This document shows positions 5,204 through 20,825 of a stretch of 64,000 nt of DNA, piece after piece. The number at the start of each line of letters is the position of its first letter. Within the stretch, counting starts at the first letter, position 1. Both the position numbers and the translations under genes were made by a program. The stretch comes from Chryseobacterium sp. (GTDB lineage Bacteria; Bacteroidota; Bacteroidia; Flavobacteriales; Weeksellaceae), in contig NZ_CP044507.1 of NCBI RefSeq assembly GCF_008831505.1, positions 1-64,000 on the forward strand. The letters run 5' to 3'. Below the pieces are notes generated by a model. That model was not told the DNA's origin. It saw nothing but the letters and a program-made list of their open reading frames with translations, and did no database searches.

Positions 5204-5278
5204 GGGTTCTTAGCTCAGTTGGTTCAGAGCATCTGGTTTACACCCAGAGGGTCGGGGGTTCGAATCCCTCAGGACCCA
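5204..5278 (+). tRNA. tRNA-Val (anticodon TAC)
   Basis: Cloverleaf is clear: the acceptor stem GGGTTCT pairs with AGGACCC at 5271-5277 with discriminator A at 5278. The anticodon stem TCTGG/CCAGA encloses TTTACAC, giving anticodon TAC. The T-arm is GGGTTCGAATCCC. CCA is not encoded. The last 17 bases are part of the 47-base attachment repeat, so the gene was regenerated intact when the element inserted. Confidence 0.96.
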
Positions 5279-5308
5279 CAAAATCTCAGAGAAATCTGAG
5301 ATTTTTTT
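5262..5308 (+). repeat. attL: 47-base direct repeat, left copy
   Basis: Identical to 20773-20819. It consists of the tRNA-Val T-arm/acceptor 3' side (5262-5278) plus the hairpin terminator. The first mismatches outside the repeat are C at 5261 against T at 20772, and T at 5309 against A at 20820. Confidence 0.93.
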
Positions 5309-5309
5309 T
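5281..5309 (+). terminator. terminator of tRNA-Val(TAC)
   Basis: A 10-base perfect stem, AAATCTCAGA (5281-5290) with TCTGAGATTT (5295-5304), closed by a GAAA tetraloop and followed by Ts. It lies within the attachment repeat, so a second copy exists at the right end. Confidence 0.9.
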
Positions 5310-5398
5310 GTTTTATACTTTTGTGTAGAGTTAGCGGGGCTTCAGCAAATCTGCAATTTCTTCATACCTTCTCATTTCTCTCATTTTCGAACCTTTTT

Positions 5399-5440
5399 AG
5401 GTTACCCACCAGGTTACCCATCTTTTTCCCAGGTTACCCA
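5399..5440 (+). repeat. three direct copies of AGGTTACCCA, probable integrase arm sites
   Basis: Exact copies of AGGTTACCCA at 5399-5408, 5411-5420 and 5431-5440 (start-to-start 12 and 20 bases), between attL and the integrase start at 5461. The position and regular spacing are those expected of arm-type integrase binding sites or integrase autoregulation sites. The function is inferred. Confidence 0.65.
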
Positions 5441-5460
5441 TATAAATACCCATTGAATCT

Positions 5461-6654: not shown

Positions 6655-6705
6655 TTTTGGTTTTGTAGTTTGTTGTTCTATTTTTACGGTACAATTAGTA
6701 ATTAT

Positions 6706-9105
6706 ATGTATGAATTTAAGGCTAAACCTAATCCATCAGAGATTGATTATAAGACCATCAGACCTGAAGATTTCCCAGGCTATAACGTAAAAGATCAAAG
6801 TTATATAACTATTAAGCCAAATGAAAATGGTTATATTTCTGAGTTTCTTGCACAGGAGATAGATCTTGAACACAAGGATACCACAGTTATTAATGCAAGC
6901 GTGGGACAAGGTAAAACCACAGCATTAATCAGTATTGCGAATGAATATGCTGACAAGAGGGACTATGTTGTCTTTATTGTTGCACCTTTTAAATCATTAC
7001 TGGATCAGTATAAACAGCATTTATTGAATGTAGATGTTGATGAGGGTCATATTCTGGACTATAGAACCCTAGAATACATGACTATTGAAAAGGATAAAGT
7101 TAAGTTTGCTGAAAGAAAATTTCAATTGATGACCTTCAACTTTTTATTGGCCAACAGTGGAGATAGGTACCTTAAGCAGGCTGATCATAAGATTGAGTAT
7201 CTTGATTTCCTGCTAGAAGAGTATCGTTCAAAGGGCAAAAAGGTTGTTATCATTTTTGATGAGATTCATGATGCAATCCATAATTTTAAAGAAGAACTGG
7301 TTTTTAACATTTTTAGATGGAAAGACAGCATACATAAAATATTTGTTTCTAGTGCCACTTTCAATGAATCCTCAAAAGTGGTTATCAAGTATCTAGCAGA
7401 GCTGACTGATCAGAAAATAATAATTTTTGAGTCCCCACGGCTACAGGAAGAGGGTAGGGTTAATGACTTGAATATATTAGTTTATGATAAAGCAACCTAT
7501 GATCTTGAAGACCCCAATCTCATGCAGTTCTTCAATCTTGAGATAGGTGTTGCTAACAAGATCAATATTTTAACTTATACCAGATCACTAGCTCATAAAT
7601 TTATTAGATCTCAAATTGGAATCGGGATAAGGTCTAAATATGGACCTTTTAACGTATGTACAGGTGATACTGAAACAGTATTTAGTTCTGCGCATAATAA
7701 TATAGGCACCACTTTTAAAACAGGAATTAGTATTGATGAAGAAAATACTGCATTTTACATTTTCTTGCCCTCCAGGAAGGAGTATTTTAATCCTTCACCT
7801 AATCTTGGTATATTCTCTGATGGGATCAATTCCTTAATTCAAGCTCTTGCTAGGTTACGAAAGAAGGGAAGAATTTATGTGATTACTCCTGATATGAATA
7901 CTCAATTTGAAGAGCCTGACAGAAGATTTCCAAAATCTAATGCTTTACTGTCCCTTAGCGACCAAGACCGATTATTATCAGCTTTTTATAGTGATTTGAA
8001 GAATAAGCTTTATCCAGAAATAGAATATCTTCAGGGAGACAGAACTTTGATAAAAGCAAGTTTCCCTGACTATAATCAGTATAAACTAGCCAATGGTGAG
8101 CGATTCTTTAGAACATACTTCGACATTTATGGGCGTAATATTACCAATTATTTTAACTGGGCGTCATCTAATAATCAGTTTGTCAACTGTAGGTTGAATA
8201 TAGTATATAAGCTAGATCTCAGGATAGAGGAAAGTAAAATATTAGAAGGGCTGATGGATTATTTCCTTAAAACCTTTTCCAATGATCCTTCCTTTAGGTT
8301 TTCCACTTCCTTTGTGAAATACGATAAACTAAGGAGATCAATTTTTTCTAATCATGTGATTCTCGTGCACAAGCTGGGACGAACAACTGAACTCGAAGAA
8401 TATAAAAATGTAACATTTGAAAAACACATAATCAAATTTATTCAAAATCTAAGTGGATTACCCTATTTAGCTAATGATCTAGGGTCAGATCATGAAGAGC
8501 CTAGCTTGGTTATAAAAAATAAGGAGAGCTTAAAATATCTTGAGCCCTTCAAAATCAGGAAATTAAACAATTATGTCAGATTTTCTGATCCAAACTACCT
8601 CATTACAACAGAAGAGTATATTCGCAATGCCATTTACTATTCTATGAACATTGTTATTAAACAGGACGATTTAAATGTGAAGTTTGAAAAAATAATAACG
8701 TTGTACATGGAATTGGGAGAATATCGAGAGAAGTTGAAAGAATATTTCAAAGACGGAGGAAAATATTTGATAGTTCCAAACGACAAAGATTTCAGGTTTT
8801 CTGATAGTGATTTTAAAAAGTTGAGTTCTTTGTTCGGTACCCTCCTGGAAAATGATAAAATATTGTCAAAAGTGATTATCCCTTTTAAAAGTGGAATAAC
8901 TCACAAGAGCCTATTCACCCTGCTAAAAAAGGTGTATTTTGAAGTAGGAAGAACACACATTGATAAGGAAAAGGTAATTGTAATAAAGAGGGAAATGGAA
9001 TATACTGATATTGGTATTAACCTAATATATCCTGAAAAAGATATTGTTACCGTATTTCATGAATCACAAAAAAAATATCCATATGTTCATGAAGATGGAC
9101 CATAA
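6706..9105 (+). CDS. SF2-type helicase/ATPase of the element
   Basis: 799-residue protein with superfamily 2 helicase motifs: Walker A GQGKTT at 67-72, DEIHD box at 185-189, motif III SSAT at 215-218 and motif VI QALARLR at 379-385. The C-terminal 400 residues are not recognised. The start at 6706 (MYEFKAK) is preferred over a TTG 36 bases earlier because it is the first ATG and lies 51 bases after int. Its place between the integrase and a recombination ATPase suggests a role in element replication or unwinding. It is not a close match to RecG, PriA or UvrB as far as I can tell. Confidence 0.75.
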   Translation: MYEFKAKPNPSEIDYKTIRPEDFPGYNVKDQSYITIKPNENGYISEFLAQEIDLEHKDTTVINASVGQGKTTALISIANEYADKRDYVVFIVAPFKSLLDQYKQHLLNVDVDEGHILDYRTLEYMTIEKDKVKFAERKFQLMTFNFLLANSGDRYLKQADHKIEYLDFLLEEYRSKGKKVVIIFDEIHDAIHNFKEELVFNIFRWKDSIHKIFVSSATFNESSKVVIKYLAELTDQKIIIFESPRLQEEGRVNDLNILVYDKATYDLEDPNLMQFFNLEIGVANKINILTYTRSLAHKFIRSQIGIGIRSKYGPFNVCTGDTETVFSSAHNNIGTTFKTGISIDEENTAFYIFLPSRKEYFNPSPNLGIFSDGINSLIQALARLRKKGRIYVITPDMNTQFEEPDRRFPKSNALLSLSDQDRLLSAFYSDLKNKLYPEIEYLQGDRTLIKASFPDYNQYKLANGERFFRTYFDIYGRNITNYFNWASSNNQFVNCRLNIVYKLDLRIEESKILEGLMDYFLKTFSNDPSFRFSTSFVKYDKLRRSIFSNHVILVHKLGRTTELEEYKNVTFEKHIIKFIQNLSGLPYLANDLGSDHEEPSLVIKNKESLKYLEPFKIRKLNNYVRFSDPNYLITTEEYIRNAIYYSMNIVIKQDDLNVKFEKIITLYMELGEYREKLKEYFKDGGKYLIVPNDKDFRFSDSDFKKLSSLFGTLLENDKILSKVIIPFKSGITHKSLFTLLKKVYFEVGRTHIDKEKVIVIKREMEYTDIGINLIYPEKDIVTVFHESQKKYPYVHEDGP

Positions 9106-9159
9106 TCTGCCTTCAACCTTTATAGTATGGGATTAAATTTTGTCCCAATTTCTTAATAG

Positions 9160-9185
9160 CCAGCCTTTACAAAGGGCTGGTTTTT
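9160..9185 (+). terminator. terminator after the helicase gene
   Basis: CCAGCC (9160-9165) pairs with GGCTGG (9175-9180), with extra T-A pairs inside, followed by TTTTT. Confidence 0.75.
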
Positions 9186-9220
9186 CTATTTATTAACCGT
9201 AATTTTTAATGTTTATTATT

Positions 9221-10126
9221 ATGCAATTAAGACAATCAGAAAGAAGAAAAGCCAAGATTAAGATGGCTTTACAAGGACCAAGTGGTGGTGGGAAGAGTTA
9301 TTCAGCCCTACTTCTAGGTAAAGGATTAGCTAATGGTGACCTCTCAAAGGTGGCTGTTATTGATACTGAGAATGGCAGTGCAGATTTGTATGCTCATTTG
9401 GGAAACTACAATGTTATTACTTTGAAACCGCCATTCACACCCGAGAACTACATTAAAGCTATAGAGGTCTGTGAGAATGCAGGTATGGAAGTGATCGTTA
9501 TTGATTCAATATCACATGAATGGGATGAGCTGCTTGACTTTCATAGCAAGTTAGCCGGCAACTCGTTCACTAACTGGGCAAAAGTAACTCCTAGGCAGAA
9601 AGCGTTTATTGATAAGATTCTTCAGGCTAAGGCTCATGTTATTGCAACAATGAGAACCAAGCAGGATTATGTTCTTAACCAAAAGGATGGGAAGTTTGTT
9701 CCAGAGAAAGTGGGACTTAAAAGTGTTCAAAGGGATGGAGTAGACTATGAGTTCACATTAGTATTTGATATAGATATTAAACACTTTGCGGTTTCATCTA
9801 AGGACAGAACAGGTCTCTTTGCGGGTAAACCAGATTTCATAATTAAAGAATCTACCGGAACTGAAATTCTTGACTGGTGTAACTCAAGTGAAAAACCTAC
9901 TAAGGATAAAGATTTCTTATCTGCTAGTAGGTTGACAAGGGATGAAATTGGTCTTAGGGATGTGATGACTAGAATGCAGGAAAGTAATTCCATAGCTGAG
10001 CTTCTAACACTATTTAAGATGTATCCTAGCTTGCAACAGGATTTGAAACCTCACTATGAAGCGCGAAAGGCTTTCCTGCAAAAAATGTCTAACCCCCAAA
10101 ATTATTCAAATAATGGAAAACTATAA
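9221..10126 (+). CDS. RecA/Sak4-like AAA ATPase, phage-type recombination protein
   Basis: 301 residues from ATG 9221 (MQLRQSERRK); an ATG 12 bases earlier would add four residues. Walker A GPSGGGKS lies at 19-26, then VIDTENGSADLY near residue 50 and a Walker B-like strand VIVIDSISHEWD near residue 90. This is the layout of the small RecA-fold ATPases (Sak4-like) coded by phages and mobile elements, often beside single-strand-binding proteins, which promote annealing or strand exchange. The family assignment is from motifs and arrangement. It overlaps the DUF3871 gene by 14 bases, indicating one transcript. Confidence 0.78.
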   Translation: MQLRQSERRKAKIKMALQGPSGGGKSYSALLLGKGLANGDLSKVAVIDTENGSADLYAHLGNYNVITLKPPFTPENYIKAIEVCENAGMEVIVIDSISHEWDELLDFHSKLAGNSFTNWAKVTPRQKAFIDKILQAKAHVIATMRTKQDYVLNQKDGKFVPEKVGLKSVQRDGVDYEFTLVFDIDIKHFAVSSKDRTGLFAGKPDFIIKESTGTEILDWCNSSEKPTKDKDFLSASRLTRDEIGLRDVMTRMQESNSIAELLTLFKMYPSLQQDLKPHYEARKAFLQKMSNPQNYSNNGKL

Positions 10127-11207
10127 CTCAATACCGGAATTTGACCTGGCAAAACAGAATCAGGCAGGGAACATTTTGGGAAACATAATAGTAGAATCTG
10201 ATGATTATATATTAAATTCCATTTATAGTAGATCTAATATGATTTTGCAAAATTCTGGTGAAAAGCTTGATAATGATATTTTAAAATTTTCACAAAAGCC
10301 TTTTATAGAAGCCAATACTATTGAAGTGGATTTTAACCACTTAAGAGATGACTGTATTGTGCCAGTATTCAGTAAGGACAATGAGCTAACCATTAGTCAC
10401 AACAATTTTATTGAAGTTGTGGCTAATTCTGTTGCCCAGGCTTATCCTCAGAATACATTTACCACTCCTGAGATTCGGGTATCCCACCAAATTAAGGGGA
10501 GGACTCCAGATGCTATACATAAGAATGTGAAGGAACTGTATGATAATGAGAAAACTATTTATTACGAGAGGATGGCATTCATTATCCAGATTCCCGGCAT
10601 TAAGGATATAGTTAATGGAAATGAACTCTCCCTAACTGTAGGAGGTGTTAGGAGTTATAACTTGGAGAATCTGTATAACAGGAAGACAATGGAGAAGTTT
10701 AAGTTCTTCATTGGCTTTCAAAATAAAGTATGTTGTAACCTGTGTGTAAGCAGTGATGGTTTTGTAGGTGAAATGAGAGTAGCTAACCATCACGAGTTGC
10801 AGGAAAAGATATCAAAGGTTATTCATGATTATAATGCTGAACTACACCTAATGGAAATGAAGGAATTAACTCAAGACTATCTTTCAGAACACCAGTTTGC
10901 ACAGCTTATTGGCAGGAGTAGGTTATATCAGCACTTACCAAAGCAGGAGAAGCAGAACATTCCAACACTGAATTTTAATGATAGTCATATTAATACCATG
11001 GCTAGGGATTACTATGAGGATCAAGCATTCAGTAGAGCTGAAGAGGGAAGGATTAACCTCTGGAGTGTTTTTAATCTCTTCACACAGGCTAATAAGAGCT
11101 CCTATATAGACACTTTTCTGGATAGGAATCTGAATGCCTTTGAATTTTCAAAAGGTCTTCAGAAGGCACTCAATGGTGATTCTGATTATCATTGGTTTTT
11201 GAGTTAA
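10113..11207 (+). CDS. DUF3871-family protein
   Basis: 364 residues from ATG 10113 (MENYNSIPEF), overlapping the upstream ATPase by 14 bases. The HLRDDCIVPVF start, the central SHQIKGRTPDA segment and the NLWSVFNLFTQANKSSYID segment match my memory of DUF3871, a family found in Bacteroidota plasmids and integrative elements. Its function is not known; it resembles phage DUF932-like proteins in its position next to recombination genes. It has no signal peptide or membrane segment. It is followed by a terminator and then the convergent cargo operon. Confidence 0.72.
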   Translation: MENYNSIPEFDLAKQNQAGNILGNIIVESDDYILNSIYSRSNMILQNSGEKLDNDILKFSQKPFIEANTIEVDFNHLRDDCIVPVFSKDNELTISHNNFIEVVANSVAQAYPQNTFTTPEIRVSHQIKGRTPDAIHKNVKELYDNEKTIYYERMAFIIQIPGIKDIVNGNELSLTVGGVRSYNLENLYNRKTMEKFKFFIGFQNKVCCNLCVSSDGFVGEMRVANHHELQEKISKVIHDYNAELHLMEMKELTQDYLSEHQFAQLIGRSRLYQHLPKQEKQNIPTLNFNDSHINTMARDYYEDQAFSRAEEGRINLWSVFNLFTQANKSSYIDTFLDRNLNAFEFSKGLQKALNGDSDYHWFLS

Positions 11208-11210
11208 CAT

Positions 11211-11242
11211 GACTGCCTCACATAGGTGAGGTGGTCTTTTTT
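11211..11242 (+). terminator. terminator between the DUF3871 gene and the cargo operon
   Basis: GAC..CCTCAC/ATAG/GTGAGG..GTC hairpin followed by a T run on the plus strand. It closes the int-helicase-ATPase-DUF3871 transcript. Confidence 0.75.
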
Positions 11243-12212
11243 AAAATTCAACCGTATAAAGCCAAAATCTAGAAATTCCCTCAGAAGTTTCTTTTTCATA
11301 TCCACTGCAGAAAGGAAATATGATGCTAACGCTTCTATCTATACATTCAAAAATATAGTATAAAGCCATACCCAAAGTCTGCGATTTTGTTGACAGGGGG
11401 CATAGATATAAATTTGTTATAGGACTCACCTCATTTGCTTTCTTAACAAACTTACTTAAAAGAGATGCTGTGACAAATGGATCATTTGCAGGAGCCAGAA
11501 TAACATCCTTTGAATCCAATTCAATTTTGGGATAAATTTCCTCTTCTGCTTGATATGCCTTTAAAACATTTTGTTGAAACATATCTGCTTGCAGAGATGG
11601 AAATCCTAAAATTTGAACTTTTTTTGTTTTCTTTTTTTCTTTGGCTATATTTAGGACCATGTTATAATCGTATCCTGATCCTATAATTAAATAATCATTA
11701 CTAACATCCACGGAATGTGACCCTCCACATCCCATAATTTCTCTAACATATTGAAAATCTTTTGAAAACTTAGTGTTTTCCTTGTTTTTGTAGGCAATTG
11801 GCTCAGAGTAAAGAAAATCCACTTTATTTATTCCAATTTGTTTACATAATCTGATGAAATAAACAATATGGTGTCTTAAAAAACCCGTGATATCAAAGGC
11901 GATTTTCTTATCAATGTTAGGGATTATATAATCCTTAAAATATGGTAAAAAAATTTCTGACTCATCAAATGTTAAAAACTTAAATAGATTATATTTATTT
12001 TCAAGACCTGCCAATTCCGCACATCCAAAGTTATATTCAGGTAAAATAAATATATGTTTTTCATCAGCTTCAATATTATCCATAAGATAATTAACTCGAT
12101 AACTTGAATTATAAGCTGAGATAAAAATATCATATTTTATCAGTGAGCTCTTATTACATATAAGATTATCCTTGACATCTAGTCTTCTTTTATACAGATA
12201 TTCATATTCCAT
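11241..12212 (-). CDS. Rossmann-like protein of unknown function, last gene of the cargo operon
   Basis: I cannot name this 323-residue protein. It alternates predicted strands and helices without signal peptide or membrane spans. Notable segments are YSEPIAYK followed by a Phe-Ser-x-Asp stretch at about 135-153, IIGSGYDYNMVLNIA (about 176-190), a strand ending ILGFPS, VILAPANDPF (about 237) and, near the end, YLCPLSTKSQTLGMALYYI then SIIFPF and a final RFWLY. The CPL-[GS]-TK-x-Q-x-LG-x-AL pattern with a terminal Trp-Leu-Tyr resembles uncharacterised proteins I remember beside conflict-system NTPases. A Rossmannoid or CARF-like ligand sensor or effector is the best guess. Its ATG directly follows the ATPase stop (TAAATG, no gap), so the two are translationally coupled. 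Confidence 0.6.
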   Translation of the reverse strand: MEYEYLYKRRLDVKDNLICNKSSLIKYDIFISAYNSSYRVNYLMDNIEADEKHIFILPEYNFGCAELAGLENKYNLFKFLTFDESEIFLPYFKDYIIPNIDKKIAFDITGFLRHHIVYFIRLCKQIGINKVDFLYSEPIAYKNKENTKFSKDFQYVREIMGCGGSHSVDVSNDYLIIGSGYDYNMVLNIAKEKKKTKKVQILGFPSLQADMFQQNVLKAYQAEEEIYPKIELDSKDVILAPANDPFVTASLLSKFVKKANEVSPITNLYLCPLSTKSQTLGMALYYIFECIDRSVSIIFPFCSGYEKETSEGISRFWLYTVEF

Positions 12213-14138
12213 TTAATCAAATAATTCTAATACAGTATTTTCCTTTCTAAAAGGAACATTATATTTTAATAATTCCTTTGCCATCATTATTTTAAGTTCC
12301 TCAGCCCTGTTATAGTAAAAGATGTTTTCCAGTTTGTCACTAGAAAGTTTTACAATTCCTCTCCTACTAATTGACAACTCCCACCAACATGCCAATAGTC
12401 CATTAATTTGATACATATCATTTCTTACATTAGAGTTTTTATCTCTCCTTCCGTAATCTTCTTTTATAATATAGGAGTATTGTTCTAAAAATGTGATTAT
12501 CCTTTTTAACCCCGGATTAAAATCTACATTCCTAATTTCAAATGTACTTATGCTACATTCAGGTGGCAAATCAGAAAATCTCAACTCTCTTAAAAAATTA
12601 CATATACTTTCGATACTATATCTATAATTAGTATTTTCATCAGTTTTATTTGCATCCTCCATAAACCAGAGTACTGTGTCCTTTATTGCTAAGAGTTGAA
12701 TTTCAGTTGAAACTGTATTACTAGCGAAATCATTTTCGTAGAATGTGTTCCATCTAAAAATGTGTTTCATTATCATAAGAAAATGTCTTGGTATCCCATT
12801 GCTTATTTTAACTAAATTATCAAAACCACAATATGAAGTAAGTTTTAGACCATTTTCTCTGTATAGTGCATCAATTAAATCTTGTTTGAATTTATCTAAT
12901 ATTACGTCATACATCTTAACATTATGCCCACTGATGTACTGTTGACTACATTCTTTTAATAGACTTGATATTTCAATTAGATTTTCACCTTTTTTTATAC
13001 TTCTGTAAATAATATAAATATTTAATCTTTCTATTAAAACGTTTTCACAACCAACATTTTTTACAATTTCATTTACATTTTTTACCTTATATTTTTTTAA
13101 TTTGGTAATGAATTTGTCAATGTGTAGTCTTTTTCCTTTTATTATTTCAAAATCACTATCAAGGTTTGACTGATTAAAATATTTAGATATATCTGTTGAA
13201 ATCCTAATCTGGGAATTAGCTATTCTCTTAATGCTAATATTTCTTAAAAATTCTCTGTATTCAACATAGTTTTCTCTAAAAATATTATCCAAATCAAAAA
13301 GTTCATATTCAGAACCTGCTTTAATATGTTCGTCTGCACTTAAAGTTTCTGTCGTTTTTAAACCATATCTTCTAGCACCTATTTTAAAGCAAACAGGATT
13401 TCTTCTCTCCCTTATAAGTGTATTAAAATACTTTTGTTGGCCAGAAGAAAAGTTCTCATATTCATCAAGTAGAAAGAGAATTTTGATGTTAGTAAGTTCG
13501 GGAACTGTTGAAGTAATAATATTTGGAATTTCAAAAATTAAATCCCCTGGATTTGATAAAATTTCAACAGATTGACTCAAATTTTTACTGCTGAGTGATA
13601 TATTATTTATAGCATGATCAATATTTTTTTGTTGCAATTTCAAAAAATCTATTAATCCACGTATATCAATAATTTTTTCCTTGCTCGTGCTAAAAAGATT
13701 TAAAACTTTCTCGCATACAATGCCCTCCAATTTTTGTAAACCTTTATTAATAACAAAAATATTGTCTATTACATCAAGAAAAAGCTGAGATAGCCATAAA
13801 TCTAAGTAGTAAGCAAAAACTGAATTCCATGTTTCTTCAGTTTCATTTCTACCCAAAAATCTATATCCATTTAACCCAGAGCATCTTAAATAAACTCCAA
13901 TATAACCCTCTTTTAAAATATTATCAAATGTGTTATTGGATCTTATCTTTTGCATACTATAACTAAAATGCTTCATGATATGAGTCTTGCCACTTCCTTT
14001 ACTTCCAACAATTAGCATTGGCATCTCAAGAGTAGGTCTAATAAAATTTTGAAAACTATGTTTTGGAAAATCTACCCAGTTATAGAATAATTCTTGATCT
14101 GAGTAGTCCACTGCTTTTGTTACATCAAATGGATTCAT
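12213..14138 (-). CDS. ORC/CDC6-like P-loop ATPase of the cargo operon
   Basis: 641-residue AAA-type ATPase. Walker A GSKGSGKT lies at residues 45-52 and Walker B FLLDEYE at 222-228, followed by an Arg-rich RRNPVCFKIGARRYG segment that has the form of sensor 1/arginine positions. The last third (about 430-641) is helical and probably contains winged-helix domains. It agrees with my memory of an ORC-CDC6-like family defined from predicted bacterial conflict systems, where it acts as a nucleotide-dependent switch; this is family knowledge, not shown here. It starts one base after the PRTase stop and ends directly at the Rossmann-like gene start. Base composition is extremely AT-rich. Confidence 0.7.
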   Translation of the reverse strand: MNPFDVTKAVDYSDQELFYNWVDFPKHSFQNFIRPTLEMPMLIVGSKGSGKTHIMKHFSYSMQKIRSNNTFDNILKEGYIGVYLRCSGLNGYRFLGRNETEETWNSVFAYYLDLWLSQLFLDVIDNIFVINKGLQKLEGIVCEKVLNLFSTSKEKIIDIRGLIDFLKLQQKNIDHAINNISLSSKNLSQSVEILSNPGDLIFEIPNIITSTVPELTNIKILFLLDEYENFSSGQQKYFNTLIRERRNPVCFKIGARRYGLKTTETLSADEHIKAGSEYELFDLDNIFRENYVEYREFLRNISIKRIANSQIRISTDISKYFNQSNLDSDFEIIKGKRLHIDKFITKLKKYKVKNVNEIVKNVGCENVLIERLNIYIIYRSIKKGENLIEISSLLKECSQQYISGHNVKMYDVILDKFKQDLIDALYRENGLKLTSYCGFDNLVKISNGIPRHFLMIMKHIFRWNTFYENDFASNTVSTEIQLLAIKDTVLWFMEDANKTDENTNYRYSIESICNFLRELRFSDLPPECSISTFEIRNVDFNPGLKRIITFLEQYSYIIKEDYGRRDKNSNVRNDMYQINGLLACWWELSISRRGIVKLSSDKLENIFYYNRAEELKIMMAKELLKYNVPFRKENTVLELFD

Positions 14139-14139
14139 T

Positions 14140-15084
14140 TTAATAAACTTTATTTGCTCTAGGGAAAATTGGATTCCATGTTATCATATCTTCATTATAC
14201 CAAATTATTGGCAAAGTATTATCGGGAGTATTATGATGGAACCCTATTAATAATTGGCTGTCATTATACCCAAGTTTGTGGGGGGCTGCATAATACGGAT
14301 TTCCGCCTTGTCTAATTACAATTGATTCATATAATTGCAATCCATAGCTTTCACAAATTTGTTTTAAGTCATCCTGCTTAATATTATCTTCATTATTTTT
14401 AAAAATTCTTGATTCGCTACTAAAACATTTATATGTTTTATCTAATCTAAGGACACTCTCCAAAAAATCATATTGATTATTTCCATTAAGAAATTCTAAA
14501 CCTTCTTCAAGGCCCACCAAAGAATAATAATGTATTTTTGAATTAGGAAACTTGGTCCTAATATGAGAAATGTATGCTTGATTTTCGTGATATGCTTGAT
14601 GACCACTACCACATATGTCATCAATAAAAATAAAATGTTCAATATCGCCTAATGTAAAGTTTAACAATTCAGATCTCTCGATAAATAGATCTTTCCTGAT
14701 ATTATTAATTTTTCTAAATTCACCAAGTAAGCTAGAACTGCTTTCCGACGGGTTACCAATTGGAATAAATCTGCTTTTTCTTTCCGATTCTTTAAAGTGA
14801 TTTTTTATTGACACTATATCAGTAGTATTATTATTACTTAACCTATAATTTTCTACAATAACATATTTATAAAAGTCTCTATAAATAGAAATTAACATAT
14901 TGTCAATTTGCAATTTACTAAAGTAAATAAACTGTGTTAGGAGAAATAATAGATTTTCTCTTTCTTCTTCCTTAAAATTACTTAACCAAATATCAATTTT
15001 ATTCTTAGATATTTTATGCTCCCAAACTGTTTCACTGAAAATTTTCAGCTTATAATAATATTTGTCAATATTTTCTTCAGCCAT
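14140..15084 (-). CDS. phosphoribosyltransferase-fold protein of the cargo operon
   Basis: 314 residues. The PRPP-binding loop signature is visible as FIFIDDICGSG at 151-161, where the two Asp and the Gly-Ser-Gly correspond to the canonical DD-x(3)-TG loop. The first 75 residues are helical (WLSNFKEEERENLLFLLTQF region) and the C-terminus carries a distinctive NTPDNTLPIIWY segment. This combination matches what I recall of a PRTase-like family of conflict systems (PRTase-CE), distinct from nucleotide-salvage PRTases such as Apt at 62167. Substrate unknown: it may make or hydrolyse a nucleotide signal or modify a target. It overlaps the methylase gene by 8 bases (ATGGCTGA). Confidence 0.72.
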   Translation of the reverse strand: MAEENIDKYYYKLKIFSETVWEHKISKNKIDIWLSNFKEEERENLLFLLTQFIYFSKLQIDNMLISIYRDFYKYVIVENYRLSNNNTTDIVSIKNHFKESERKSRFIPIGNPSESSSSLLGEFRKINNIRKDLFIERSELLNFTLGDIEHFIFIDDICGSGHQAYHENQAYISHIRTKFPNSKIHYYSLVGLEEGLEFLNGNNQYDFLESVLRLDKTYKCFSSESRIFKNNEDNIKQDDLKQICESYGLQLYESIVIRQGGNPYYAAPHKLGYNDSQLLIGFHHNTPDNTLPIIWYNEDMITWNPIFPRANKVY

Positions 15085-16396
15085 TTTTTTTAAAAATCAA
15101 TATGTGTTCTGAGGATATTATGCTCGCAGTTTTATTCCTCTTTGTCATTAAGCCATAAGACTTTATATCATCTACCATTTCGCATTCTAAAGTAAATCCT
15201 AACTTAAGTATTATTTCTTTTAGATATTCTTGTGTTCTAAATTCATAGTTACATACTACATTATTGGAGGCAACCAATACTAAGTATTTATTTTTCTTTA
15301 AAACTCTTGCAGATTCTTTAAATGCCTCTGCCATTTCAAGTATGTAGTTTGCTGCTATGTAAGCTCTCAGAGGATTTTTGTCAAATATTTTTTGGAGTAA
15401 ATAATCAGCACTTTTAATGTCTGTTTTTTTTAAAGCTTTATATTCATCTTTTTTGTAGTTTTCTCTGCCAATATTTAATTTATCTAATTCTCCTAAACTA
15501 TTATATCCTAGCCAATATAAATTTAAACTCGATGCTCTTATATATTTTTGAGCACCTGCATATGGAGGGGAGGTTAGAATTAAATCTATAGAATTATCCC
15601 TTAGAGGTGTTAAATTTCTAGAATCTTCGGAAACTAGTTTTCCAACTTGCCTATAATTACTTATAAAGGATTTGTTTTCAACTCTTTTTATATTTTGATC
15701 TACAATTTCAAAGAATTTGTCAAAAACACTAATTGATTTTAATTCATCTAGCTTCTTTAGAGAACTAATCTTTAATTTAGACCCATCTGCATATCTATCA
15801 GGATTTAACTTTACTGGAACAGAAATTCTTGAATCAGCTTTACTAACTTTCCTCACACAATTTGAAAAACATAAAAGGTAGAATTCTTGATACTTTACTT
15901 CCTTAATATTAGACACAACTTCTTTTATAGAAGCTAATTGGACTTGAATGTGTTTTTCAAACCAGAAATCAAAGGACTTATTGCCAATAAAGTTATGGAC
16001 TGAAGTAACATTGCCTAAATCTTTTTTTAATCGATTTTTTATGTTTTCTAACTTTGATATATCATAATTATTACATTTTACTCTAGTGATAAGTCTCGCC
16101 AATGGATTCGCATCACTTCCAAAAGAATTTAAACCTGCTAATTTTGCTTCTAAGAGTACTGTCCCTGATCCGCAAAATGGATCTAAAACTTTTGCTCTAT
16201 CTGAAACAAAAAATGAGTTGTTAAAAAAATAATAAGGAATATTAGGAATTAACTTTGCTGTATAAGTATGTATAGAGTGAGTCGCTCTCTCTGTAAACTT
16301 AACGGAGTCCACTAATTTTTTGAAATCAACACTAACTGGTTTTTTTTCTAGGTTGTACTCGATCAATATCTCTTCAAAATTCTCTTTATAGTCCAA
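15077..16396 (-). CDS. DNA methyltransferase (N4/N6 type), first gene of the cargo operon
   Basis: 439 residues. The AdoMet-binding motif I DPFCGSGT is at 72-79, the GSDANPLA acidic strand at 93-100 and the catalytic TSPPY at 275-279, followed by GAQKYIRASS. Motif I precedes the SPPY motif, and no target-recognition or restriction domain is visible. It should methylate exocyclic amino groups of cytosine or adenine in DNA. No restriction endonuclease gene lies beside it; instead it opens an operon with a PRTase-like protein and a large ATPase. A TATATTTG box on the minus strand lies 22-30 bases upstream of its ATG. Confidence 0.82.
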   Translation of the reverse strand: MDYKENFEEILIEYNLEKKPVSVDFKKLVDSVKFTERATHSIHTYTAKLIPNIPYYFFNNSFFVSDRAKVLDPFCGSGTVLLEAKLAGLNSFGSDANPLARLITRVKCNNYDISKLENIKNRLKKDLGNVTSVHNFIGNKSFDFWFEKHIQVQLASIKEVVSNIKEVKYQEFYLLCFSNCVRKVSKADSRISVPVKLNPDRYADGSKLKISSLKKLDELKSISVFDKFFEIVDQNIKRVENKSFISNYRQVGKLVSEDSRNLTPLRDNSIDLILTSPPYAGAQKYIRASSLNLYWLGYNSLGELDKLNIGRENYKKDEYKALKKTDIKSADYLLQKIFDKNPLRAYIAANYILEMAEAFKESARVLKKNKYLVLVASNNVVCNYEFRTQEYLKEIILKLGFTLECEMVDDIKSYGLMTKRNKTASIISSEHILIFKKNG

Positions 16397-16418
16397 TATA
16401 AAAATTTCTGATAATTTA

Positions 16419-16426
16419 CAAATATA
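16419..16426 (-). promoter_or_regulatory. -7 box of the cargo operon promoter
   Basis: TATATTTG read on the minus strand, 23 bases upstream of the methylase ATG. No clear TTTG lies at the 19-base distance, so only half of the consensus is present. Confidence 0.5.
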
Positions 16427-16573
16427 TTAATCCAATCGCAATCTAAATTTTTTTTAAAATATTATTTTCAAAAACACAATTTGTACGTAATCTCCCCCTG
16501 AAGAACTCCCCCCTCTTATGTTTAAGGTTGCAATCCCCTCCCTATATTTTCTTACAGGAGGTTTTTTACCTGG

Positions 16574-16607
16574 CAGTGAATAAAATCTATTCACTGTTTT
16601 CTTTTTT
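16574..16607 (+). terminator. hairpin with T-rich tail inside the intergenic region
   Basis: CAGTGAATA (16574-16582) pairs perfectly with TATTCACTG (16588-16596) around a five-base loop, followed by TTTTCTTTTTT. No coding gene ends before it on the plus strand, so it may terminate a short untranslated RNA or act as a leader structure of the 16744 gene. Confidence 0.6.
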
Positions 16608-16743
16608 AGTTGGCAAGCCCCCAGAAGGACCCTCACTTTTTTTGAGAATTCTGATTTTTATCACAGACCAGTATCAAGGTGATAGCTGTACACTCTCTGT
16701 GTGTGGAAACGAATTCTGATGTCTAACTCAAAAAACAAAAGCA

Positions 16744-17091
16744 ATGGTAACTATCAGCAATTTTATGCCCAGAAAAAGGGAGGATGGAAGTGTGTTCTAT
16801 GTTCTCCAGATCACAAGTGGAATTGAACTTGTGAAAAGCAAAACTACAGGTCAGTATTATGCTACTACAAGACAATGTACAATTCCCACTACTCTAAATG
16901 AAAGTGCCTGTCTGTCAATCAGAGGAACTGAACTGGCAGGTAATATCATCAAAGTGAAGTGTGAACCTTATGATTTTATTGAGAAACAAACAGGAGAGGT
17001 CATGACCTTGGATTACAGGTATGAGTATGTACCCGAAGAAAATGAAGTTGAAACTGGTGTATCAGATCAGGCCACTCATGAAACCTACTAA
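16744..17091 (+). CDS. small element protein of unknown function, beta-rich
   Basis: 115 residues (MVTISNFMPRKRED). The composition and alternating polar/hydrophobic pattern suggest a beta-barrel such as an OB fold, with an acidic, disordered tail (EYVPEENEVETG onward) similar in kind to the acidic tails of single-strand-binding proteins. An element-coded ssDNA-binding protein is a reasonable guess given the helicase and Sak4-like ATPase in the same element, but I recognise no definite family. A perfect terminator follows it. Confidence 0.55.
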   Translation: MVTISNFMPRKREDGSVFYVLQITSGIELVKSKTTGQYYATTRQCTIPTTLNESACLSIRGTELAGNIIKVKCEPYDFIEKQTGEVMTLDYRYEYVPEENEVETGVSDQATHETY

Positions 17092-17112
17092 GGTTAAGAA
17101 GATAATATATTG

Positions 17113-17165
17113 GGACAAAATTTGCCTGCATACTCTTAAGGTACAGTACAAATTTTGTCCTTTTT
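17113..17165 (+). terminator. terminator with 12-base perfect stem
   Basis: GGACAAAATTTG (17113-17124) and CAAATTTTGTCC (17149-17160) are exact reverse complements separated by 24 bases and followed by TTTTT. The left arm with its 5' neighbours also repeats, inverted, at 9135-9149. Confidence 0.7.
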
Positions 17166-17319
17166 AATTATCTGGAATTGCCAATCTCTGGTAAATAACC
17201 AATAAAACTTCTTTACAGGAGGTTTCACCATTCACTTAAATAGCGTTTTCTTTACTTTTTATTTTTTAGGGATTGTTCTGAAGCCGTCCGGTTAATAACC
17301 TCCTAAGGAATAGTAGGTT

Positions 17320-17544
17320 TTAAGATATCACTGAAGTGACTTCAGATAGTTTGACTTCCAAAGCAGTAGAGATTTTGTAAAGTGTGTAACTACTGGGACA
17401 GGTCTTACCGGATTCAATTCGGTTCATGTTGGATTTTTCAAAATTACAGAGGGCTGCAAGTTCAGCCTGAGAGACATTTTTAGTCTCTCTCAGATCCTTA
17501 ATCCTTCTACCCAGAGCCTTTTGAAAATCAATTTTATCCACCAT
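17320..17544 (-). CDS. XRE-family helix-turn-helix regulator
   Basis: 74-residue single-domain lambda-repressor-like HTH protein. The helix-turn-helix is at about residues 11-45 (LGRRIKDLRE, then SQAELAALCNFEKSNMNRIE), with the typical PSSYTLYKIS following segment. It has no dimerisation or sensor domain. It is divergent from the membrane protein gene at 17632; a perfect GATAAC-N6-GTTATC palindrome lies between them over the expected -33 position of that gene, so it probably represses that promoter, itself or both. Confidence 0.85.
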   Translation of the reverse strand: MVDKIDFQKALGRRIKDLRETKNVSQAELAALCNFEKSNMNRIESGKTCPSSYTLYKISTALEVKLSEVTSVIS

Positions 17545-17574
17545 GGTCTACTAAGCCCAAAAGTGGTCATAAAT

Positions 17575-17592
17575 GATAACGGCATGGTTATC
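17575..17592. promoter_or_regulatory. palindromic operator GATAAC-N6-GTTATC
   Basis: Perfect six-base arms with a six-base spacer, 31 bases upstream of the XRE start and ending 17 bases before the TATATTTG box (17610-17617) of the next gene. A likely binding site for the XRE protein. Confidence 0.55.
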
Positions 17593-17609
17593 AAGAATTA
17601 TAACTTTAC

Positions 17610-17617
17610 TATATTTG
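17610..17617 (+). promoter_or_regulatory. -7 box of the 17632 gene
   Basis: TATATTTG, 14 bases before the ATG at 17632, giving a nearly leaderless transcript. Confidence 0.5.
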
Positions 17618-17631
17618 ATTAAAACTATTTT

Positions 17632-18366
17632 ATGAAAAAATTAACGAAAGAAGAAATTGAAAAGCAAGACTCTTACGCTGTTGCTTCTATTATCGATTAT
17701 TGGAAGGAGTACCAGCAGGATAGCGTGATAATAGCCTACATTACTTTGTTACAAAGAAATGAAGTAAGTCTTATTGAAGGTAGGAAATTAAAATTTGACA
17801 AATTTTCTACTCATTACGGTGGGGAAAGCATAAAAATACTTACGGAGTACCTAAATGAAAATCCAGATTTGAAGGACTCAAATATTATAACTACTGCAGA
17901 GTCTATATTCAATAAAAAGGTTTTTAGATATGAGTTCGAAACATTGGGAATTTTAACGAAATTTCTAGGTTATTTAATAGGATTAGTTCTGATCTTGACA
18001 TTGTTAACCATTGCTGGACCAGTAGGGGTAATTGTAGGTTTGATTATATATACCTTGGGCTGGAAATTTTCGAAAATAGGGTTTTTAATTTATGATAGTT
18101 ACAAAGAGCTAATCTCTGAACAAATAACATATATCCAATTTCAGAATAGATGGAGAAGAAGCTTAGCAGTTACCTTGGCACTGACAATCTTTTTCTCTTT
18201 ACTCCTAGTGTTTGTTAGCCACATTGATAAAGCATTTACGGATGGACTAACAGCAGTATATATATTAGTAATGGTTTTACTTGCTTTTATACCACAGTAC
18301 CTTCTTCTAAATAGACTTTACAAGAAATTCTTCCGGAATCCCATTGGTAATGATTTACAGTTGTAA
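17632..18366 (+). CDS. four-helix membrane protein of unknown function
   Basis: 244 residues. The first 105 are soluble and charged. Hydrophobic segments follow at about 105-125, 125-145, 178-198 and 206-226, so an inner-membrane protein with a cytoplasmic N-terminal domain is likely. No family recognised. It stands immediately downstream of a palindrome and opposite the XRE regulator. With the next gene, which has the same soluble-then-membrane plan, it may form a two-component membrane cassette; an abortive-infection or phage-exclusion role is only a possibility. Confidence 0.55.
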   Translation: MKKLTKEEIEKQDSYAVASIIDYWKEYQQDSVIIAYITLLQRNEVSLIEGRKLKFDKFSTHYGGESIKILTEYLNENPDLKDSNIITTAESIFNKKVFRYEFETLGILTKFLGYLIGLVLILTLLTIAGPVGVIVGLIIYTLGWKFSKIGFLIYDSYKELISEQITYIQFQNRWRRSLAVTLALTIFFSLLLVFVSHIDKAFTDGLTAVYILVMVLLAFIPQYLLLNRLYKKFFRNPIGNDLQL

Positions 18367-18466
18367 TGTTTCAACAATAGACCTCCAACTGCGATCATAA
18401 TGTTTAAGTTTTTAATTGACTAGTGAAAATGAGTTTATGTTCGTTACAGTATAAAGCAAAAAAACA

Positions 18467-19219
18467 ATGATGTCTAATCTGAATGTTTCCCCTGAGGCAT
18501 ATATTTCTTTAACACATAGACGATATGGAAATGACACCACATCTAGGAAAGTAAGTGAAAAGATATCAAAATTTGAAGAGTGGGGAGTTCCTTATTATGG
18601 TTTTCTCAGGAGAGTTAATGAATTTGAATCCCGCTTACTTTTCAAGTATTACGGTGGTCGGATTCAAAATGATGAGTTCTATGACTCATTATTTAAGGAC
18701 AAGATTTTTGCCTATGACAGTAATACTTTGGTAGAAGTGGATTCAAGATTTCAATCAAAGGAAGATGAAGAGCAGTTCTTGCTTACGCTAATAGATAATA
18801 TAAAACAGAATCATTTTGAAACCTCAATAGACAGAGTTCTTGATAGGATATTTGGAATGGCTAATGTCATTTTTGGTTTCGAAGAAAGATCTCCTTTCCC
18901 GGAAGAGAAACGTTACTTTTATACCGGACTTCTCTCGGTGATGTCTTATTTATTTTTTCAGGCCATTGATTTTATTTTTGAGAGTAAGTCAGAGTTGCTA
19001 TTTTTCCAGGGATTATTATTTCTTGCAGCCTTAGTCAGTTTACTTTTTAGAGCTATTGCATCATTTATAAAAAAAATTAGCTCTCGAAATTCTACTGTGA
19101 AGTCAAAAGTACTAGATGGGATTATGGTCATACTTACTCTGCCACTTTTCCTCCTGGTTCTGTCACCATTTGTTATCGTTTCTTACATAATTTTTTTTGT
19201 ATTCTCCAAGAGGAGGTAG
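18467..19219 (+). CDS. membrane protein of unknown function
   Basis: 250 residues (or 249 from the next ATG at 18470). Residues 1-150 are soluble and charged. Two or three hydrophobic segments lie at about 153-170, 176-196 and 217-246, and the protein ends in Lys-Arg-Arg. Not recognised. It lies 100 bases after the 17632 gene on the same strand, with the same general plan. Confidence 0.5.
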   Translation: MMSNLNVSPEAYISLTHRRYGNDTTSRKVSEKISKFEEWGVPYYGFLRRVNEFESRLLFKYYGGRIQNDEFYDSLFKDKIFAYDSNTLVEVDSRFQSKEDEEQFLLTLIDNIKQNHFETSIDRVLDRIFGMANVIFGFEERSPFPEEKRYFYTGLLSVMSYLFFQAIDFIFESKSELLFFQGLLFLAALVSLLFRAIASFIKKISSRNSTVKSKVLDGIMVILTLPLFLLVLSPFVIVSYIIFFVFSKRR

Positions 19220-19330
19220 TAATGCTTTAACCTAATATGATAGTGCCCAGCATGGTATCTGTAGCATTAATGATGACCGCAAAAGGTTAACCCTTGTCAA
19301 ATCTAAGTGAAAATCCGTAAAATTTATTTT

Positions 19331-19774
19331 ATGTCTTACCAATACAGAGAACACATTACCATAAATAGTCAGCTTTATGAAACACAGTCAGAGCCACTTA
19401 AGAACTTCGAAAAGGAAATAAGGCAAAAATATGTTGTAAGAAAGGGACTGTTAACCAGTCTGTGGAGGGATTACGTTGGAACTTGGGAGGTTGATTTTGG
19501 AAGATTGTTTTTGACGGGTATTAAAATACCTGTTGTAGATGGAGCCGGATCATTAAAGGAAGTTTCTCTGGAACCTCTTTTTGGAACTGATGACAGAATT
19601 TTTGCTTATTGGTTTTCAGGCAAAATTACGATAAAGAAAGGTAGGGTGCTCATGTCTTATTTCTATGAGAATATACATGAGAGAGACTGCTATTACATAT
19701 TTACAAAAGGTATTATGACTGATTACTATGAGGTGGATAACACCAAAAAGAAATGGGAACCAGAACCATTTTAA
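19331..19774 (+). CDS. small soluble protein of unknown function
   Basis: 147 residues from ATG 19331 (MSYQYREHIT). A GTG at 19307 would add eight residues but has no support. The sequence is rich in Tyr, Phe and Trp with predicted strands (GTWEVDFGRLFLTGI, IFAYWFSGKITI). No motif recognised. It ends directly before a good terminator. Confidence 0.5.
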   Translation: MSYQYREHITINSQLYETQSEPLKNFEKEIRQKYVVRKGLLTSLWRDYVGTWEVDFGRLFLTGIKIPVVDGAGSLKEVSLEPLFGTDDRIFAYWFSGKITIKKGRVLMSYFYENIHERDCYYIFTKGIMTDYYEVDNTKKKWEPEPF

Positions 19775-19777
19775 AAT

Positions 19778-19804
19778 AAACCACCTCAAAAGGGTGGTTT
19801 TTTA
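19778..19804 (+). terminator. terminator after the 19331 gene
   Basis: AAACCACC (19778-19785) pairs perfectly with GGTGGTTT (19793-19800), followed by T's. Confidence 0.8.
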
Positions 19805-19816
19805 ATTTAATTAACC

Positions 19817-20194
19817 ATGAAAGAGAAAATATTTGATTACTTAATATTTAAGCTAGGAAGTGACTATGAGGAGTATGAGTTTGATCTTATACCGATACCA
19901 CCTTATGAGTTTATTGAAAATGAGCTGTCTCTGGAGCCTTATGAATACTTTGGAGAAGTAAAGGAGGTTTTAGGGTGTAAGGTTCAGCAGATTATTCTGT
20001 ATTACAATGCTGACAATCTTATGAGGGTCATGATCAAATTCAGAGGAAATAAATTACTTCTTATTAAGAGAGTACTAGAAGAATCAAATATCAACTTTCC
20101 TGATACTATTATGTTTCTCAAAATGTACTTCTCACCAGAAATCAAGGAAACCATATTGCTTTACCAGCATAAAAAACTTAGTACAGAATTTTGA
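19817..20194 (+). CDS. small acidic protein of unknown function
   Basis: 125 residues (MKEKIFDYLIF). The N-terminal half is very acidic with many Glu, Asp, Tyr and Pro, which is reminiscent of DNA-mimic anti-restriction proteins in composition only. The rest is a mixed helix/strand domain. No family recognised. It lies between a terminator and the RadC-like gene. Confidence 0.5.
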   Translation: MKEKIFDYLIFKLGSDYEEYEFDLIPIPPYEFIENELSLEPYEYFGEVKEVLGCKVQQIILYYNADNLMRVMIKFRGNKLLLIKRVLEESNINFPDTIMFLKMYFSPEIKETILLYQHKKLSTEF

Positions 20195-20251
20195 TTACGT
20201 ATTCTATACGGACTGAGTAAAATATTAACATTAACCAAAAACAAAAATTAA

Positions 20252-20692
20252 ATGGAAAATACAATAGCAGAAATCCAGGTCTCTTATAAGCCCAGTAGGT
20301 TATTAGATTTCAAGATCCAGGACAGTCAGAAGTCATTTCAGGTAATTCTGGACAAGTGGGAAAAGGACACCATTGAAATGCAGGAAGAAGTCAAACTTTT
20401 GCTGCTAAACAGGAATAATAAGGTCTTGGGTATATACTCTCTGGCTAAAGGTGGTATAACCTCATGTGTTGTGGATGTAAGGATTATCTTAGCTGTAGCT
20501 TTGAAGGCATTGGCAACAGGAATAATTTTGGTCCACAATCACCCCAGTGGAAATTTGGCTCCCAGTGCAGATGACAAAAATATCACTGAACAGTTACAAT
20601 CATCCTGTAAGCTAGTAGGTATCACCTTGGTGGATCATCTTATCATTACCAGAGAAGATTATTTCAGTTTTGCTGATGAAGGATTATTGTAA
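20252..20692 (+). CDS. radC: RadC/JAB-domain protein (short, element type)
   Basis: 146-residue JAB/MPN-domain protein lacking the N-terminal helix-hairpin-helix of chromosomal RadC, as is common in mobile elements. The metal-binding motif HNHPSG with the downstream Asp (SADDKNIT) is complete, and the KGGITSCVVDVR and DHLIIT segments are typical. The family is widespread in phages, islands and plasmids; a DNA-related or anti-restriction role is proposed, but its biochemical function is unsettled. It is the last gene before attR. Confidence 0.85.
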   Translation: MENTIAEIQVSYKPSRLLDFKIQDSQKSFQVILDKWEKDTIEMQEEVKLLLLNRNNKVLGIYSLAKGGITSCVVDVRIILAVALKALATGIILVHNHPSGNLAPSADDKNITEQLQSSCKLVGITLVDHLIITREDYFSFADEGLL

Positions 20693-20695
20693 CAA

Positions 20696-20715
20696 AGGCA
20701 TACTTTTAGGCATAC
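20696..20715 (+). repeat. two direct copies of AGGCATAC near the right end of the element
   Basis: AGGCATAC at 20696-20703 and 20708-20715, start-to-start 12 bases as in the first two left arm sites. This could be a diverged arm or excisionase site on the right side. Weak evidence. Confidence 0.35.
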
Positions 20716-20772
20716 CCTGAAAAACTAAAGCTTTACAAGTCCCATAAACAGTAGCTTTTTGAGAAAGTGGAT

Positions 20773-20819
20773 GAATCCCTCAGGACCCACAAAATCTCAG
20801 AGAAATCTGAGATTTTTTT
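20773..20819 (+). repeat. attR: 47-base direct repeat, right copy
   Basis: Identical to 5262-5308. It carries the last 17 bases of a tRNA-Val(TAC) gene without the rest of the gene, plus an orphan copy of the hairpin terminator (stem 20792-20801/20806-20815), and lies 6 bases before tRNA-Val(GAC). Confidence 0.93.
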
Positions 20820-20825
20820 ATTTTA

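Follow-up and report, generated by a model that had tools for sequence, protein, structure and literature searches.

The operon and the element that carries it

A compact four-gene operon was found on the minus strand of the window, by which we mean the whole 64,000-nucleotide stretch of Chryseobacterium sp. DNA analysed here. Its genes code, in order, for a DNA methyltransferase (MTase), a PRTase-CE protein, an ORC/CDC6-like ATPase and a tandem-CARF protein, with the PRTase (14140-15084) as gene two. The features of the locus are:

5262-20824, no strand: integrative element of ~15.5 kb, AT-rich, carrying the operon (att-like repeats, tRNA-Val, GC content)
5461-6654, plus strand: tyrosine integrase of the element (PF00589 E=3.8e-15, PF17293, PF13102)
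11241-12212, minus strand: tandem-CARF (CARF6, SAVED-like) protein, 323 aa, presumed nucleotide sensor (PADLOC CARF6 E=2.1e-98; structure model)
12213-14138, minus strand: ORC-CDC6-like AAA+ ATPase, presumed DNA-sensing switch (PF24389 E=5.2e-121)
14140-15084, minus strand: PRTase-CE protein, 314 aa, presumed nucleotide-targeting effector (PF24390, PADLOC, structure model)
14200-14232, minus strand: C-terminal family signature NTPDNTLPIIW, residues 285-295, presumed hood (N285, P287, N289 and W295 in 70/70 aligned sequences)
14602-14625, minus strand: PRPP-loop motif IDDICGSG, residues 154-161 (position and conservation in the alignment)
14737-14757, minus strand: presumed PPi loop GNPSESS, residues 110-116 (between strand 104-108 and helix 115-127)
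15077-16396, minus strand: DNA methyltransferase with TTG start, presumed self-marking (PF01555 E=3.3e-9; PADLOC MTase_II E=1.6e-46)
20252-20692: RadC gene of the element

The four genes are tightly packed. The MTase overlaps the PRTase start by 8 nt, the gap between PRTase and ATPase is 1 nt, and the CARF gene follows directly after the ATPase. Known motifs were recognised in the MTase (DPFCGSGT at residue 72, TSPPY at residue 275) and in the ATPase (Walker A GSKGSGKT at residue 45, Walker B-like LFLLDEYE at residue 221). Type II restriction-modification was considered and rejected, because none of the four operon genes matched an endonuclease family.

The operon is carried by a mobile element, bounded by two att-like repeats of 52 nt (5262-5313 and 20773-20824, 96% alike). 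The left repeat overlaps the 3' end of a tRNA-Val gene (5204-5279). The GC content was 32.5% for the element and 28.3% for the operon, compared with 44.4% for the rest of the window. The element also carries helicase-like protein, AAA_24 and DUF3871 genes, and three of its ORFs, at 16744-19219, had no Pfam family.

Family, fold and pocket motifs of the PRTase

The 314-aa protein had been read, from sequence alone, as a PRTase-fold protein outside nucleotide salvage, and a profile search against PRTase families had been proposed as a check. The ORF was recovered with exactly these boundaries, and the search matched Pfam family PRTase-CE (PF24390) over its full length (E=8.1e-62, 209.8 bits against a cut-off of 27, profile positions 1-253 of 253). 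The family is predicted to act on nucleotides. Five PADLOC models of the retron PRTase_III-A matched as well (E 1.5e-38 to 4.9e-12). The NCBIfam model DS32_1, an anti-phage PRTase, gave a weak match (22 bits against a cut-off of 250), and the protein was therefore not filed under it. A PRTase is named in a legend of PMC13092281. No tblastn match to the window PRTase was found in the phage collection at E 1e-3. Profile searches gave no sequence relative of either the PRTase or the CARF6 protein among solved structures (three matches, E 0.41-0.75).

An AlphaFold2 model of the PRTase, built on 70 sequences, had a pLDDT of 95.3 and a pTM of 0.91. It starts with helices at residues 2-19, 27-34, 39-49, 57-83 and 90-102, so the helical N-terminal domain of the earlier reading is indeed mainly helical, but it makes up a third of the protein and not half of it. 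Further on, a strand (150-158) ends in the region of the acidic pair and is followed by a helix (162-178), with the PRPP loop between them. This is where PRPP loops sit, a placement that had been set as a check, and the modelled protein has a type I PRTase fold. The best solved structures in Foldseek were XGPRT 6kp5 (3.8e-4), PRPP-Mg-bound UPRT 3g6w (4.8e-4) and UMP-bound UPRT 1i5e (6.1e-4). The 50 VIA-align matches listed had Z-scores of 10.7-9.2, rmsd values of 2.6-4.9 A, 113-167 aligned residues and 7-15% identity (for example 5e38_C, Z 10.7, rmsd 3.8, 140 aligned), and they included UPRT, OPRT, purine PRTases, PyrR and PRPP synthetases. The fold ranks do not choose between a pyrimidine and a purine base, because the VIA-align matches were tied and the first Foldseek rank was held by XGPRT.

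The PRPP loop IDDICGSG was located as first read. Its acidic pair, D155 and D156, on whose retention in homologues the sequence-only reading had staked its claim, is invariant in the 70 aligned relatives. This alignment holds part of the available PRTases, and all its members except the window protein (69/70) came from scans with two peptide patterns; since these patterns contain the DD or the PDN..LPI motif, 70/70 conservation of the motifs is partly circular. Among 29 distinct relatives collected without patterns, by tblastn and profiles, the loop DD was present in 26, with the other three (L040, L128 and L131) left unjudged by the alignment and the strict pattern. Neither the loop placement nor the acidic pair thus speaks against the earlier reading of a PRTase-fold protein outside salvage.

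Residue 160 is Ser in 67/70 and Thr in 3/70 relatives, and residue 161 is Gly in 68/70. The Ser-Gly in place of Thr-Gly, seen earlier as a departure from salvage enzymes, is real in the window protein but amounts to a mild, conservative variant, because canonical loops occur in other PRTase-CE lineages. Their loops read DD..G[ST]G or ASG, with TGGT in L041 and L134 and TGKT in L138. The string HDDLLATGG, with which the loop had been compared, lies in a plus-strand frame at 62527-62553, which that reading called Apt. The C-terminal NTPDNTLPIIW segment was also where it had been reported, as a family signature and not as something special to this protein: N285, P287, N289, W295 and R309 are invariant in the 70 aligned relatives, and a segment of the type NxPxNxxPIxW was found in the distant PRTase-CE member L013. 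In the presumed PPi loop, G110 (69/70), E114 (68/70) and S115 (69/70) are conserved.

The full loop consensus of type I phosphoribosyltransferases is [DE][DE]xxxTGxT. The window protein has SG and Q instead and was for this reason not filed as a classical PRPP transferase. The last Thr position is Gln in 58/70 relatives (Thr in 10/70), and basic residues are missing from the presumed PPi loop. The chemistry may therefore be other than PRPP transfer. Compared with PRTase-CE at large, with which it shares the full-length match, the acidic pair and the G[ST]G loop, the window protein belongs to an ORC/CARF6-associated clade with Ser-Gly and usually Gln as the last loop residue.

Could this be a salvage or other housekeeping phosphoribosyltransferase whose sequence is simply unusual? 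Its fold is close to those of uracil, xanthine-guanine and orotate PRTases, as is the hhhDD loop, but it differs from them in the N-terminal helical part, the C-terminal signature and the loop ends. It is also rare: PRTase-CE was above the Pfam cut-off in 21/395 Bacteroidota genomes, and CARF6 of the kind encoded here was found in 2/395, the window's genome included. With an operon of fixed partner set on an AT-rich element inserted at a tRNA gene, a salvage role is extremely unlikely.

Conservation of the operon and the presumed effector slot

The operon was compared across 92 loci, namely 10 plasmid loci (of 14 matches; H5, H8, H10 and H14 were left out), 78 genome loci, 3 viral-contig loci and 1 PRTase-CE locus found through Pfam. 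The genome and viral loci were found by the two PRTase peptide patterns, which favours the clade and biases the conservation of those motifs. The set retains 80 of 85 confirmed genome places. Identical PRTases were present in L003 and L047 and in L094 and L122. Four of the PRTase-CE loci used for comparison, L126-L129, were matched by the Pfam PF24390 model and missed by the PRT profile built in this analysis.

The order MTase, PRTase, ORC, CARF6 on one strand was found at 74/92 loci, six of them with a weak MTase match (E 2e-4 to 2e-6), and at four further loci with split ORFs, giving a total of 78/92. Weak MTase matches were those of L106-L108 and L110-L113. CARF6 was missing at 5/92 loci, all at a contig or locus end. 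Another 5/92 had PRTase, ORC and CARF6 and no MTase of this family; at L037 and L039, which lack it, an annotated N-6 DNA methylase adjoins. The PRTase stood in other contexts, with no ORC or CARF6, at 4/92 loci (L040, L041, L118 and L119). Two Rhizobium plasmid operons (L034:4697-9958 and L038:7945-11736) had a split ORC, the former with split MTase and ThyX as well, and are probably decayed or interrupted because of these split ORFs.

Carriers of the operon were Bacteroidota, Pseudomonadota, Actinomycetota, Nitrospirota, Acidobacteriota, Bacillota, a Thermoplasmatales archaeon and others. No megablast match to a rhizobial operon was found in E. coli genomes, a search that would miss diverged copies. 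Pairwise identities correlated at 0.76-0.82 among PRTase, ORC and CARF6, and at 0.60-0.64 when the MTase was one of the pair (64 loci). Judged by these identities, PRTase, ORC and CARF6 diverge together and the MTase is less in step. The strict Walker A pattern was matched by 75/78 full-length ATPases, the three misses being near-variants such as GGRSTGKT, and the loose Walker B pattern by 55/78. Among full-length strong MTase matches, [TS]SPPY was present in 73/73 and motif I in 63/73. Matches to defence genes were scattered among the 94 immediate neighbours surveyed, and we therefore do not claim that the operon lies in defence islands.

The fourth protein (323 aa) had no Pfam match at E 0.1. 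Its model, built on 59 sequences, had a pLDDT of 92.4 and is of the CARF-type Rossmann fold. The second half aligned best with a Csm6 CARF (8jbb_B, Z 13.5, rmsd 2.4, 119 aligned), followed by Can2 and Card1; the Csm6, Card1 and Can2 CARF matches ranged between Z 10.6 and 13.5. Both halves also resembled the CBASS SAVED receptors Cap4 and Cap5, at a modest Z of about 9, and the lone Foldseek match below 1e-3 was a SAVED protein bound to cGAMP. Nine residues were invariant in 59/59 sequences (D107, Y135, P138, Y141, G180, P205, P245, K276 and G281). The likeness to CBASS SAVED receptors and to the CARF proteins of type III CRISPR systems lies in these CARF-like Rossmann folds. Unlike in those systems, the operon genes include no cyclase (CD-NTase) and no Cas10, as searched with Pfam and PADLOC, and receptor and presumed effector are separate proteins.

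In the host genome, no match to the Cas10 family PF22335 was found. Its one SMODS-family CD-NTase lies ~1.5 Mb away, where it forms a two-gene CBASS of its own together with a 2TM effector, and the operon was accordingly rejected as a CBASS. This host CBASS (L159:7428-8759, at about 1.52 Mb of the host genome) consists of the 2TM effector and the cyclase and stands ~4 kb from the host thyA.

A search based on CARF6 covered Bacteroidota genomes (2/395), Pseudomonadota genomes (5/398; the phylum of L048), plasmids (8) and viral contigs (4), and gave 19 places. These include the window and the L048 genome, and the 8 plasmids and 3/4 viral contigs were also found through the PRTase. PRTase-CE was present at 17 of the 19 places. 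At the other two, its slot is taken by HD-CE (PF24391; L151:3309-4421 and L152:4745-5890, E 2e-23 and 5e-24), a family whose Pfam name links it to the HD phosphohydrolases; both loci have a C5-cytosine MTase and retain ORC and CARF6. In other contexts, PRTase-CE is the C-terminal domain of AAA/STAND proteins (L118:7238-10468 and L125:5000-8182) and of HD proteins (L119:7841-10561 and L131:7125-9890), and it stands beside a retron RT at the Priestia retron locus L041. The swap and the fusions fit the behaviour of an effector domain, and PRTase-CE is presumed to fill the effector slot of the operon. The CARF6 search also gave a divergent PRTase-CE/ORC/CARF6 operon (L153:4667-10751; CARF6 match weak, 4e-4); the protein encoded after it has 640 aa and matches HAD hydrolases weakly.

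The sequence-only reading had suggested that PRPP may be used to modify a base, a protein or a nucleotide signal; the analysis gave no support for modification of a base or protein or for the making of a signal. In a signal-making scheme, the PRTase would produce a nucleotide signal, such as a ribosylated or pyrophosphorylated nucleotide, sensed by the CARF protein of the operon, and another component would be the effector. A CARF/SAVED-type receptor two genes downstream, in an operon without a cyclase, would suit such a scheme, as would a host with no PF22335 Cas10 match and with its one SMODS CD-NTase in a separate CBASS. Against it, HD-CE replaces the PRTase at two loci where ORC and CARF6 are kept, PRTase-CE is also found fused to AAA/STAND proteins and next to a retron RT, and no other effector is evident in the operon. 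We regard the signal-making role as rather unlikely; the operon, the HD-CE swap and the AAA/STAND fusions point instead to a nucleotide-targeting defence effector.

Thymidylate genes and the proposed role of the operon

Genes of the dTMP pathway are enriched beside the operon. A Pfam scan of the 94 immediate neighbours gave ThyX as the commonest family (11 members), followed by ThyA, dUTPase, DUF4365 and DCD with 3 each; the DCD matches seem to be the dUTPases counted a second time. When five query proteins were compared with all ORFs of at least 70 aa at the 92 loci, a dTMP-pathway gene was found within 700 nt of the operon at 24/92: ThyX at 17, ThyA at 3, trimeric dUTPase at 4 and all-alpha dUTPase_2 at 1, with two such genes at L056. 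At L037, the enzyme is PF08761. In about 875 kb lying beyond 1.3 kb from the operon edges, a dTMP gene was found at one locus (L084). Several of the adjoining genes overlap the MTase start by 4-14 nt, as measured with mechanical start codons. The loci with a dTMP gene belong to Hyphomicrobiales, a Moraxella plasmid, Bacteroidota, Nitrospirota, Acidobacteriota, Actinomycetota, Bacillota and the Thermoplasmatales archaeon.

The ThyX signature is RHR..S..E.S.RY. It was present, exactly or as a close variant, in 13/18 ThyX ORFs; in L048, L066 and L104 another RHR was matched, and the ThyX of L034 is split over two ORFs without the signature. The ThyA PCH motif was visible in 2/4. At L150, a distant locus found via CARF6, a dUTPase adjoins on the opposite strand. 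No dTMP gene adjoins the window operon, and the host genome has a ThyA elsewhere and no ThyX.

The distribution of these genes was followed on a quick PRTase tree of 89 rows, which leaves out L040, L041, L118, L119, L116 and L117 and includes the window, L150 and L154. The dTMP label required at least 14 changes, 5 of them forced by starred branches, a number that is indicative because long branches of the quick tree meet. The label was nevertheless clustered, with a mean of 22.1 changes after shuffling and 0/500 shuffles as low. With at least 14 changes and yet a clustered label, the genes appear to have been acquired or lost on several occasions and passed on by descent after that.

One way to tie the MTase to these genes would be a DNA hypermodification pathway, in which MTase and PRTase together carry out base exchange and ThyX, ThyA or dUTPase supply the precursor. 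It would make use of the MTase in the operon and of the dTMP-pathway genes at 24/92 loci. The MTase family is swapped, though (C5-cytosine in L151 and L152, N-6 DNA methylase next to L037 and L039), and it diverges less in step with the core genes; HD-CE replaces the PRTase at 2 loci, and within 700 nt of the operon a dTMP gene is absent at 68/92. Hypermodification is thus highly unlikely.

The reading that we prefer, with a probability of about 0.6, is that PRTase-CE is the nucleotide-targeting effector of a mobile four-gene anti-phage or anti-invader system. The MTase would mark host DNA. The ORC/CDC6-like ATPase and the tandem-CARF protein would sense foreign or replicating DNA, a nucleotide cue, or both, and switch the PRTase on. 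The PRPP/nucleotide pocket of the PRTase would then break or exchange the glycosidic bond of nucleotides, and this attack would starve phage replication and arrest the cell, as in abortive infection. The attacked or monitored pool is most likely that of uracil/thymine, because enzymes of the dUTP-dUMP-dTMP route repeatedly join the operon. This pyrimidine assignment is a probable one drawn from gene neighbours, and the window operon itself is among those with no dTMP neighbour.

The dTMP genes could also be tied to the sensor. CARF, or ORC, would read dUTP, dUMP or dTTP, the accessory enzymes would keep this ligand low in healthy cells, and the PRTase would attack another nucleotide. No dTMP gene was found at 15 other Bacteroidota PRTase-CE loci (L125-L139) in 11-16 kb each, a small control, and the dTMP link may therefore be a property of this system and not of PRTase-CE in general. 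Likewise, none was present at the four loci without ORC and CARF6 (L040, L041, L118 and L119). That thymidine nucleotides can serve as phage cues has a precedent for dTTP in Clover, according to passages of PMC12265719. These controls are small, and the PRTase-CE lineages that they cover are distant ones, which weakens the case for the sensor. The known ligands of CARF and SAVED domains are, moreover, cyclic oligonucleotides and not mononucleotides. On balance, we consider a sensor-side link with a different target nucleotide unlikely.

A combination of the two roles would be a thymidylate-gated immunity, in which CARF and ORC read a cue of the dUTP/dUMP/dTTP type, PRTase-CE or HD-CE makes the pool of pyrimidine deoxynucleotides collapse, and ThyX, ThyA or dUTPase set the threshold or protect the host. 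We see it as a tentative and unlikely proposal. If true, it would give a CARF receptor a new use and account for the presence of four unrelated dTMP enzyme families at one operon.

Among known systems, Clover shares with the preferred reading a nucleotide-pool effector tied to a thymidine-nucleotide cue, a link made here by gene neighbourhood alone; its enzymes differ, CloA dGTPase and CloB being described in passages of PMC12265719 as a dNTPase and a nucleotidyltransferase. Retron type III-A is similar by the five PADLOC PRTase_III-A matches and by the related PRTase at the Priestia retron locus. It was rejected as an assignment: the operon has no RT and other partners, and no RVT_1 (PF00078) match was found in the host genome. 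Type III retrons typically carry PRTase effectors, as stated in a passage of PMC12548924. In passages of PMC9122126, PRTases are probable retron effectors whose mode of action in retrons is called unknown, and a DprA+PRTase pair from P2-like phage hotspots gave protection against T7 and lambda. By this description, the pair resembles the window operon in having a PRTase beside a suspected DNA-sensing protein, which there is DprA.

The names PRTase-CE, HD-CE and Calcineurin-CE were reportedly coined by Nicastro et al. 2023 (doi 10.1093/nar/gkad879), a paper cited in PMC10853773. ORC-CDC6-like, PRTase-CE and HD-CE have consecutive Pfam numbers (PF24389-PF24391), an indication that precisely these genes had been described together by the time the families were made. 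Full-text literature searches, judged mostly from titles and with Nicastro et al. 2023 outside their scope, gave no title on the operon or the thymidylate link, and the consulted portions of PMC12839542 and PMC10853773 contain no mention of PRTase or phosphoribosyltransferase. The enzyme family is thus known. The repeated presence of dTMP genes and the likeness of the modelled fourth protein to SAVED may be additions, unless they are contained in Nicastro et al. 2023.

PRTase-type effectors would be common to retrons, the DprA-PRTase pair and the ORC/CARF operon, and the consulted passages give no reaction for any of them. For the ORC/CARF operon, the recurring dTMP genes offer a concrete first guess at the nucleotide pool involved, and a CARF receptor whose operon encodes no partner cyclase raises the question of what else CARF domains may sense.
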